From Flavobacteriaceae bacterium (GTDB lineage: Bacteria; Bacteroidota; Bacteroidia; Flavobacteriales; Weeksellaceae), in the NCBI GenBank assembly GCA_031277475.1, contig JAITMJ010000143.1, forward strand, positions 1 to 39,967: DNA of 39,967 bases, written 5' to 3'. A program made the position numbers and the translations under genes. Position 1 is the first letter of the stretch, and the number at the start of each line of letters is the position of its first letter. Under the pieces are notes generated by a model. The model saw nothing but the letters and a program-made list of their open reading frames with translations. It did not search any database and had not been told where the DNA came from. Positions 6,571 through 8,697 of the stretch are shown in pieces.

Positions 6571-6604
6571 TTCATCTAAAATTTCAAAATTTCATCTAAA
6601 ATTT
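6571..6604. repeat. 20-bp-period tandem duplication over a stop codon
   Basis: TTCATCTAAAATTT occurs at 6571-6584 and again at 6591-6604, a 20-base offset. It overlaps the 3' end of the DUF4350 gene and supplies its present stop codon. Confidence 0.8.
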
Positions 6605-7739
6605 GGTTCATTTTTATCAAATCTTCGCGTGTAACTTGGGAATATCTGTCGTTTCCTTTTTGGATTAAAAGAAGTGCTTCGTTTATTTTTTCAATGTTTT
6701 TTCCGGTTTTCAGTTGAAGTTTTTTAGCAAAATTTTCATCGAGATTTTGGGTGTCTATCAGCAAATCCATTCTCACTTTGTGAAGAAAGTATTGTGCTTT
6801 TTTTGCCATCATATCGTGGAAATCGCCTTCTTGAAGGTAAAGATTTCCGATGCTTTTCACAAATTCTACGGATTTATTTTTCAGCGGCTCGATGATGGGG
6901 ACGATGCGCTGCCGCCGTTTCGCATTGAAAATTGCAAACAGCAAAAGCCCGCCCAAAAGCAACCACCACGCGTATCTCAAACCCGGATTCATTAAAATAA
7001 AACGAATCGGAATTCGTGATGCTCTTCCGGAATTTTCTGTGAACCAAACGGTTTCGCGATCGGGAAGATATGAAAAAACATCTTGCGCGTATTTTTCGTT
7101 TTCGGATTTTAAAAGATAATAATTGGTGAGAAACAGCGGCTCGGAATGAACATAAAAATGCCCTTTTCCGAAATTTATTTTGATGAAATTCGAACTGTTT
7201 TCCGAATTTGTTGCCGTAAGTTTCCCCAGAATTTCATGTTCTTTGGAGATGTACATAAATCCCCGATTGGAAGGAAATTTATCCAAAATCACTTTATCAT
7301 TTTTGAATTTCACGTCGGTCAGTTCGAGATTTGTAACGTCGTCATAACTCATATTCGAGTGGGTGAATTTCAAGGAATCCGCGACTTTATACGGAAAAAA
7401 CTCGGAAACAATCATCGCATCGGAGCCTTTGGAAACTTCGTCCATCAGTTTTTTCCAAGATTCTTCGTCTATTGATTTTTCTATCAGCAAAATATTATGT
7501 GGTTTGGAATTGGGATTTTCGTTGTAATAATTGTACGGTGAATTTTCGATTTTTTTCAATTTGTTTTTCAGCAGAAATTCGGATTCTTGGTTGAAAATAT
7601 ACAGCCCGAAAGGAGCTTTGCTGTCGGTTTCAAAATTTTTCCGCCAGTTCACTTTTTCGGATTTATTGATTTGCAACAGCACCAAAAGTGCCATCACTAC
7701 AACGAAAATCACGATATATATTTTGAAAGTTTTATTCAT
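6576..7739 (-). CDS. DUF4350 domain membrane protein
   Basis: A 387-residue protein with two membrane helices (about residues 5-23 and 255-272). The large domain between them resembles DUF4350, with its LYIFNQESEFLLKN start and a central segment that ends before RIPIRFILMNPG. A cytoplasmic C-terminal tail rich in helices follows. In Bacteroidota such genes usually lie with DUF4129, MoxR ATPase and DUF58 genes, in a system thought to chaperone envelope or metal-related complexes; the molecular role is not established. Here it is the last gene of a minus-strand run from SpoIIM to DUF4350. Its ATG directly abuts a GC-rich repeat, so no normal leader exists, and its 3' end carries a small duplication. 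Confidence 0.75.
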   Translation of the reverse strand: MNKTFKIYIVIFVVVMALLVLLQINKSEKVNWRKNFETDSKAPFGLYIFNQESEFLLKNKLKKIENSPYNYYNENPNSKPHNILLIEKSIDEESWKKLMDEVSKGSDAMIVSEFFPYKVADSLKFTHSNMSYDDVTNLELTDVKFKNDKVILDKFPSNRGFMYISKEHEILGKLTATNSENSSNFIKINFGKGHFYVHSEPLFLTNYYLLKSENEKYAQDVFSYLPDRETVWFTENSGRASRIPIRFILMNPGLRYAWWLLLGGLLLFAIFNAKRRQRIVPIIEPLKNKSVEFVKSIGNLYLQEGDFHDMMAKKAQYFLHKVRMDLLIDTQNLDENFAKKLQLKTGKNIEKINEALLLIQKGNDRYSQVTREDLIKMNQILDEILKF

Positions 7740-7920
7740 AAGCCCCCTGCCCCCCGAAGGGGGAATATTTCTAATAATTTTACATTAAATAAAGTTTTCA
7801 ATATTATTCTTTTTTCACCCCATTTTTTGGAAATATTATTTTTTACATAAATATTTTTCAACATTATTTTTTACCGTTTTTTTTTCGGATTTATTTCCCC
7901 CTTTGGGGGACAGGGGGCTT
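7740..7920. repeat. MITE-like element with about 26-bp terminal inverted repeats
   Basis: The left end (7740-7769) and the complement of the right end (7891-7920) both begin AAGCCCCCTG and agree at 24 of the first 26 positions. Each end also forms its own hairpin of Cs and Gs. The interior is very AT-rich and noncoding. The element fills the whole gap: its left edge touches the ATG of the DUF4350 gene and its right edge touches the stop of the DUF4129 gene. No target-site duplication or transposase is visible. Confidence 0.7.
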
Positions 7921-8697
7921 CTATTCTTCAAATTTCTGTTTAAATTTTTCATAATCCGTTTCATTAATATCAAATTCGCCGTACCAAACATAATCAAAAA
8001 TATGAACCAATTCCCGAAATTTCTTTTTCAAATTTTTGTCTTGTATTTCGTGGAGATAATCTTTGTTGGTTTTTTCTATGTTCCAATCAATCAGTTTTTT
8101 ATCCGAGAGTTTTTTCAAAATAAATAAAAATTGATAGCGGATTGCCGCGCGGAAATCCTTTTGTTTTTCGAGGGCGAGAATGGTTTGCGGAAAATTGATT
8201 TCGTGGATGTTTTCGCGGATGTCGTTTTCGGCGATGTGCAATTTCCGGTTTTTCTTGCTGAAAAAGAAATTTCCGTCCTTGCTCATTAAAAATTTTATTA
8301 AAAAATAAAGAACCACGCCGATGAGCAAAACGCCCAAAATCCGAAGCACGGTTTCTGCATAAGAATTGGTTTTGCTCAATTTTCCAAAAATGGATTCTAA
8401 AAATCGGTCAATTCTTTTTTTCAATTTTTGCCAAAACGATTCTTTAGGTTTCGAGGCGGAATAATCGAAATCGGGGTCTTTTTTATATTTATTTTTAAAA
8501 TCGGCATCAAAAGTTTTCGGAAAAACGGTGTTGGAAGTTTCGGGATTGGCTTCTAACAAGGAATCTGCGGAATAGGTGTCGCGATAATGATTGTCGAAAT
8601 AATCTTCTACAACCACAGACGGCGGTGCTTCTTCTTGCGAAAAGAAAAATTTGAATGTAAACAGGAAAATAAATATAAAAATTTTAAGTTTCATCAT
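7921..8697 (-). CDS. DUF4129 domain protein
   Basis: A 258-residue protein with an N-terminal hydrophobic signal (MMKLKIFIFIFLFTFKFFFS), an acidic extracytoplasmic linker, a membrane helix at residues 117-137, and a cytoplasmic C-terminal DUF4129 domain. The last includes RAAIRYQFLFILKKLSDK and the terminal DYVWYGEFDINETDYEKFK block typical of that family. The domain has no proven biochemical activity and travels with MoxR/DUF58/DUF4350 genes. It sits between the multi-pass protein gene and the DUF4350 gene on the same strand. The start could be either of the two adjacent Met codons at 8697 or 8694. Confidence 0.8.
   Translation of the reverse strand: MMKLKIFIFIFLFTFKFFFSQEEAPPSVVVEDYFDNHYRDTYSADSLLEANPETSNTVFPKTFDADFKNKYKKDPDFDYSASKPKESFWQKLKKRIDRFLESIFGKLSKTNSYAETVLRILGVLLIGVVLYFLIKFLMSKDGNFFFSKKNRKLHIAENDIRENIHEINFPQTILALEKQKDFRAAIRYQFLFILKKLSDKKLIDWNIEKTNKDYLHEIQDKNLKKKFRELVHIFDYVWYGEFDINETDYEKFKQKFEE

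Follow-up and report, generated by a model that had tools for sequence, protein, structure and literature searches.

The locus

The window, the whole stretch of 39,967 nucleotides that was analysed, contains a DUF4129-like gene followed on the minus strand by a DUF4350-like gene. Both proteins score just below the curated Pfam cut-offs (29.7 against 30.4, and 24.6 against 24.8). The entire gap between the two genes, with no base left over, is occupied by an element at 7740–7920. The features of the locus are as follows:

7740–7920: whole element, two inverted half-palindromes and an AT-rich interior (from the fold, the pair listing and the gap comparison)
7740–7763, minus strand: End A half (CCCCCTTCGGGGGGCAGGGGGCTT outward), abutting the ATG of the DUF4350 gene; one mismatch to the family pattern
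7771–7776, minus strand: inner motif of End A, TATTAG (CTAATA on the plus strand); this or two variants mark 23 of 85 copies
7897–7920, plus strand: End B half (CCCCCTTTGGGGGACAGGGGGCTT outward), abutting the stop codon of the DUF4129 gene; no mismatches to the family pattern
7921–8697, minus strand: upstream DUF4129-like gene (ORF and Pfam), whose stop codon TAG (7921–7923) touches the element
6576–7739, minus strand: downstream DUF4350-like gene (ORF and Pfam), whose ATG, starting at 7739, touches the element

The arms at 7740–7765 and 7895–7920 are 26-nt inverted repeats separated by a 129-nt spacer, with 24 of 26 positions paired (92% complementary). In 200 mononucleotide shuffles of the region 7601–8050, no inverted repeat of 26 bases reached 24 matches. 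The predicted RNA fold of the transcribed strand has an energy of −61.9 kcal/mol (z = −6.3), and none of 200 shuffles was equally stable. A sequence-only reading of this DNA had described near-perfect inverted-repeat ends, a stable hairpin, and contact with a stop codon on one side and an ATG on the other, all of which these values and coordinates bear out. In the fold, the base that directly follows the TAG is paired with the one that directly precedes the ATG. Each arm is a small palindrome in its own right, and single arms also occur. There is no ORF of 80 codons inside the 181-bp element, and the region 7400–8300 gave no match to Rfam at E values up to 1.

The arms are copies of a dispersed repeat

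Both arms are copies of CCCCCTTYGGGGGACAGGGGGCTT. An initial DNA search of the same genome (2.99 Mb in 156 contigs) gave 80 matches. With up to three mismatches the pattern CCCCYTTYGGGGGACAGGGGGCTT occurs at 82 places, compared with 11 for a reversed control, and the exact 21-base core occurs at 42 places, compared with none for the control. The 85 copies analysed below are those counted at up to four mismatches in the stretches around all 82 places plus the window. They occur singly and as inverted pairs with GGGGGCTT outward; the 20 pairs listed span 75–288 bp and have variable interiors, with two compact pairs at 88 bp. Resemblance between the interior of the 7740–7920 copy and that of other copies is confined to the parts near the ends, and this copy is without the tip stem described below. 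In 55 near-exact copies, T occupies the final two positions of GGGGGCTT in 85% and 82% of cases, and conservation of the following base is weak (A in 44%); the boundaries at 7740 and 7920 therefore fit those of the repeat.

The sequence-only reading had envisaged one 181-bp non-autonomous element and suggested a genome search for further copies. Further copies do exist, but the description was too narrow given the range of pair lengths, the common single halves and the many coding copies. The non-autonomous character is supported by the many copies elsewhere, the absence of an 80-codon ORF, and the tight junctions in relatives (below).

The exact core was found in five of 320 genomes of the family, 42 times in this genome and once or twice in each of four others, one of which (G011) is the closest relative. 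Across the phylum, 17 of 395 genomes carry a looser pattern: this genome (66 places), 10 genomes of a second family of the order (f3, probably Flavobacteriaceae), four in other families of the class and two beyond it. The usual form of the core in f3 is CCCCCTTYGGGGGYTRGGGGG. The exact core was also found in one viral contig.

Other repeats appear beside some copies. On contig C62, copies at 2963, 6209 and 10953 (L067) look as if neighboured by another repeat, two having an identical, partly palindromic outer flank, CTCATATTTTTATATGATTTTTCACT, and the third a variant of it. On contig C123 (2490–3138; L091), five motif copies form a cluster interspersed with another repeat, TCACGTTGAGC[AG]AAGTCG.

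The element shares with REPs and REPINs an imperfect palindrome of 20–40 bp, in many copies and often in inverted doublets, and with MITEs the terminal inverted repeats that enclose no transposase gene. The copies could be MITEs whose parent is a DDE insertion sequence that ends in AAGCCCCCTGTCCCCC, which would account for the inverted repeats, the lack of a long ORF and the dispersal. A weak excess of flank matches of 3–4 bases points the same way (5/20 and 4/20 pairs, values reached by 3% and 1% of controls; they are uncorrected and the matches overlap element bases). However, there is no constant target duplication, flank matches of 5–9 bases show no excess, and half elements are common. 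The three ORFs scanned, of eight between wider inverted pairs, encode no transposase, and no parent insertion sequence or transposase-bearing copy with these ends was seen in the fetched loci. We consider a DDE parent to be improbable.

Junctions without the element in other genomes

We compared the DUF4129–DUF4350 gap in a set of 17 loci that match DUF4350. A DUF4129 match is also present at 15 of them, among which L162, L164 and L167 were unreadable, the DUF4129 match beginning inside the protein. The gap is 181 bp here and ranges from −8 to +11 bp at 10 of the 15 loci. In the closest relative (L153), an unrelated 132-bp stretch occupies the same gap. The sequence-only reading had proposed this comparison, reasoning that a gap of the same conserved sequence in relatives would indicate a gene-specific region; the 10 loci have no such gap. 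Their tight junctions suggest that in the ancestor the two genes most likely adjoined each other, stop to start, and were later split by the element.

These junctions bear on the idea of a regulatory or terminator hairpin specific to this gene pair. The hairpin is very stable and lies between co-directional genes, and two terminator-like matches were found, but both are on the plus strand, with none on the transcribed minus strand. With ten loci of other genomes having no gap and the same sequence occurring in many unrelated places, such a function is very unlikely to explain the element. A sigma-70 scan (8 sites, 2.0 in shuffles) was set aside, the model being unsuited to Bacteroidota.

The two ends differ and one is tied to start codons

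The two ends of a doublet usually differ. End A carries TATTAG or one of two variants some 8–10 bases inside the palindrome (23 copies), and the other 62 copies are End B, often in the forms GCCACATTTT or CTGCGGATTT. A related End A, CCTA[GA]TAGGAAT[TG]C, occurs in three f3 copies (L250, L259 and L273). An ORF of at least 70 codons begins with an ATG within 25 nt outward of 14 of the 23 End A copies (0–16 nt away) and of 2 of the 62 End B copies (Fisher p = 2e-8). The same rule was satisfied at 7.3% of 20,000 random positions of these loci, a control that admits any position and is mostly coding. End A can be recognised in 15 of the listed doublets, and nine of these have an ATG outward of it; the doublet of L073 is oriented against both flanking ORFs.

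Stop codons of genes lie within 25 nt outward of 14/62 End B and 4/23 End A copies (p = 0.77), compared with 2.2% of random positions. Stops are enriched at both types of end and starts at End A only. The polarity therefore rests on the start-codon side, since the tie to stops does not separate the two ends. The full order of stop, End B, End A and ATG in the direction of transcription is found in the 7740–7920 doublet and in L060, L066 (twice), L071 and L085.

In 9 of the 23 End A copies a tip stem lies beside the end, the letters of which vary yet pair (GACG/CGTC, AGCG/CGCT, CCGC/GCGG, TGGC/GCCA). The mean tip-stem score was 4.09, compared with 1.03 in 300 mononucleotide shuffles (sd 0.53, maximum 2.37); since the score was devised after seeing the sequences, this is suggestive only.

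An asymmetric hairpin between a stop and the next start recalls the attC sites of integrons, in which polar hairpins serve recombination. Integron-like sites are nevertheless a most improbable reading: the flanking genes are conserved neighbours rather than cassettes, the copies are dispersed and some lie inside genes, and the attC core, GTTRRRY, is absent from the ends of the element.

REPs that adjoin stop codons are already known (PMC3733652, seen in part). In the excerpts of the literature on REPs and Rickettsia palindromic elements (RPEs) available to us, we did not find a start-codon rule for one end.

Copies inside genes

Twenty-four of the 85 copies (23 End B and one End A) lie within ORFs of at least 190 codons, and MraZ (162 codons) is a further case. 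These coding copies are translated in three ways. In nine genes the copy lies within an apparent signal peptide, as judged by reading the N-termini, and always in one frame, giving (I)FPLWGTGG(L) or a near variant; the hosts are DsbD-like, Porph_ging, two LRR proteins, an outer-membrane barrel, a weak LolA-like protein (below the Pfam cut-off), a LysM-glucosaminidase, an M1 peptidase and a histidine kinase. Other coding copies read PPSGDRGL or, on the opposite strand, SPLSPEGG. They are found in MurG, the C-terminal linker of FtsZ, the C-termini of MraZ, RsmH and a D-Ala-D-Ala ligase, and the C-terminal T9SS sorting domains of two proteins (L069 and L083).

Several of the hosts are division or cell-wall genes (L087, L100, L059 and L074), namely mraZ, rsmH, murG, ftsZ, the D-Ala-D-Ala ligase gene and, likely, ftsQ; this last, which had no Pfam match, we take to be ftsQ from its appearance. 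An inverted pair spans the mraZ–rsmH junction.

For three of the hosts we compared orthologues. The MurG insert is present in this genome (G000) and in G011 and is absent from the other 20 of 22 usable rows (25 rows, with L135, L136 and L149 dropped as wrong ORFs). RsmH is longer at both ends than in all 14 relatives, in which the alignment runs from a YH.(P)VLL start and the protein ends 5–9 residues past SAKMR or SAKLR. Here there are ∼45 extra residues before the YH.(P)VLL start, provided that translation begins at the Met shown, and 17 residues after SAKMR, with element peptides in both extensions. The signal peptide of the LysM-glucosaminidase is 25 amino acids long, compared with 19–20 in the nine closest orthologues (10 more distant ones were too divergent and were left out). 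Judged from these alignments, the inserts in MurG, RsmH and the LysM-glucosaminidase are clean gains in this lineage.

In a genome of another genus (G005; L129), a stretch near the N-terminus of MurG, SNEISPFGGKGDFRV, is a related palindrome read in a different frame.

Sister elements and the DUF559 domain

We sampled sister elements at 30 loci from seven f3 genomes. The IleRS gene of f3 contains an in-frame 94-base doublet that corresponds to ∼24 extra residues relative to a solved homologue. Further in-frame copies lie in a B12-binding/MeaB/mutase protein, in a signal peptide (FPLWGLGG) and at the N-terminus of a glycosyltransferase. In two host genes the insert consists of a palindrome, a DUF559 domain and a second palindrome: MetH, in L266 and at the same site in L173 of another genus, and LeuRS, in L263, the left end of which is decayed and was assigned by reading. 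In-frame insertion into unrelated genes that have element-free homologues, the mark of a coding palindrome, is thus seen for MurG, RsmH and the LysM-glucosaminidase and, among sister copies, for IleRS, LeuRS and MetH.

The DUF559 matches to PF04480 have E-values of 5.8e-35 (L266) and 2.3e-36 (L263); that of L173 was recognised by tblastn to L266 (68% identity). In alignments with solved homologues, 141 residues of MetH stand against 19, and 155 residues of LeuRS against 6. The domain matches one solved chain, 3hrl, an ‘Endonuclease-Like Protein’ (E 5e-18). We take DUF559 to be a PD-(D/E)XK, Vsr-like endonuclease. Thus, in two host genes, ends of this kind carry, or at one time carried, a nuclease domain with them. 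The form bearing DUF559 may be the autonomous one, mobilising the short copies.

A tblastn search with two DUF559 queries over the loci, which include up to ∼3 kb on each side of the 82 places, matched L173, L263 and L266 only; within that span, no copy in this genome has a DUF559 nearby. Among 80 loci from viral contigs with the looser motif (793,906 bases, from at least 120 stretches), none was found at E 1e-3, the positive control being recovered; a general link between DUF559 and the motif is disfavoured because of this result. An inverted pair within 300 bp was present in two of those 80 loci. The 40 plasmid records with DUF559 relatives included no Bacteroidota among the matches listed.

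Y1_Tnp loci and RAYTs

A canonical REPIN, that is, a REP doublet mobilised by a REP-associated tyrosine transposase (RAYT), would have the same anatomy of inverted pairs with outward ends plus singles, and Bacteroidetes RAYTs of subclass 2.6 have been reported with atypical structures copied in the genome (PMC6006769, seen in part). Nonetheless, none of the five Y1_Tnp matches of this genome has the motif within 1.5 kb, the nearest seen being 3.4 kb away on contig C30; three of the five have the IS200-like YI.NQ motif, one is short and one lies inside a long ORF. Of 39 matches in eight further genomes, 30 loci were inspected and none had the motif in up to 1.5 kb on each side. Two 2.6-like RAYT loci (L211 and L221) adjoin a different palindrome, CCGCACGATT..AATCGTG-like, and base frequencies in the 55 near-exact copies show no GTAG or CGTC tag at the hairpin foot. 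A RAYT as the mobiliser is therefore unsupported by the Y1_Tnp loci examined in the nine genomes, and we regard a canonical REPIN as unlikely, though less so than a MITE of a DDE element.

The Y1_Tnp match inside the long ORF (L052/L104; G000:C133:19092–22412) is a RAYT-like domain in frame within more than 1100 amino acids, together with apparent methylase motifs (DPACGSGAF, GNPPY) and the repeated peptides NKGINPLV and RGLNPL. The arrangement resembles a restriction-modification enzyme into which a RAYT has been inserted along with coding REPs of its own.

Discussion

The DUF4129–DUF4350 gap very probably arose when a dispersed palindromic mobile element, non-autonomous and similar to a REP doublet or MITE, inserted there. 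Sequence comparison shows a many-copy repeat that is absent from homologous junctions and of which several genes in this lineage have made clean gains. In most doublets the two ends differ and the whole folds as a long hairpin, with End A strongly tied to the upstream side of starts. Copies sit after stops, before starts, in loops, in C-termini and in apparent signal peptides.

We envisage that an enzyme acting in trans would recognise the hairpin ends and move the element, and that purifying selection may have removed copies elsewhere, thereby setting the sites that are visible. At the present locus the element would have split a tight stop–start junction, and a fully paired stem would keep the TAG and the ATG at one hairpin foot, since the fold pairs the bases next to each. 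Hypothetically, the closed stem could preserve coupling of the two genes. The comparisons used one genome per species, and present-day movement is beyond their reach.

Tentatively, these elements could form a ‘protein-tolerated’ palindromic family of the Flavobacteriales. Its autonomous form would be a DUF559 endonuclease between the same ends that enters essential enzymes in frame without splicing, and the 181-bp element would be a non-autonomous form whose stem acts as an RNA splint to keep termination–reinitiation coupling. We lean against this full scheme at present, as distinct from the insertion itself.

The closest known systems are the RPEs and intragenic REPs, which are likewise palindromes between genes and in frame in unrelated proteins, as singles and dimers (PMC3733652). 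That likeness is drawn from their description; RPEs belong to another phylum, and the element here has no CGTC tag. In the portion of that account available to us, RPEs are described with neither the recurrent one-frame use of apparent signal peptides nor an end tied to starts. The REP/REPIN/BIME repeats with RAYTs share the short palindromes, the inverted doublets, the many copies and the frequent position beside stops, whereas the present element has no GT[AG]G or CGTC foot and no motif-bearing RAYT locus among those examined in nine genomes. Bacterial MITEs such as those of Coxiella burnetii (PMC5896051, seen in part) also have terminal inverted repeats without a transposase and lie beside or within genes; unlike these, the element here has no parent insertion sequence in the fetched loci and no constant target duplication.

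The element is thus of a known kind, a palindromic mobile repeat, and the sequence family appears to be undescribed. In the titles and abstract openings of the open PubMed Central literature, a scope outside which most subscription journals fall and which makes this weak evidence, we found no description of the element or of palindrome-flanked DUF559 inserts, and the motif letters gave no matches in those papers.

In the literature available to us, coding palindromes have been described for Rickettsia and some REP-rich genomes. As an enzyme that might move such repeats, the DUF559 nuclease found between the same kind of ends in sister lineages is a concrete candidate. The present lineage adds a Bacteroidota example with dozens of copies, clear empty sites, inserts in several essential proteins and an end tied to starts. 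It also provides a natural set of stop–hairpin–start junctions in which translational coupling may be studied.
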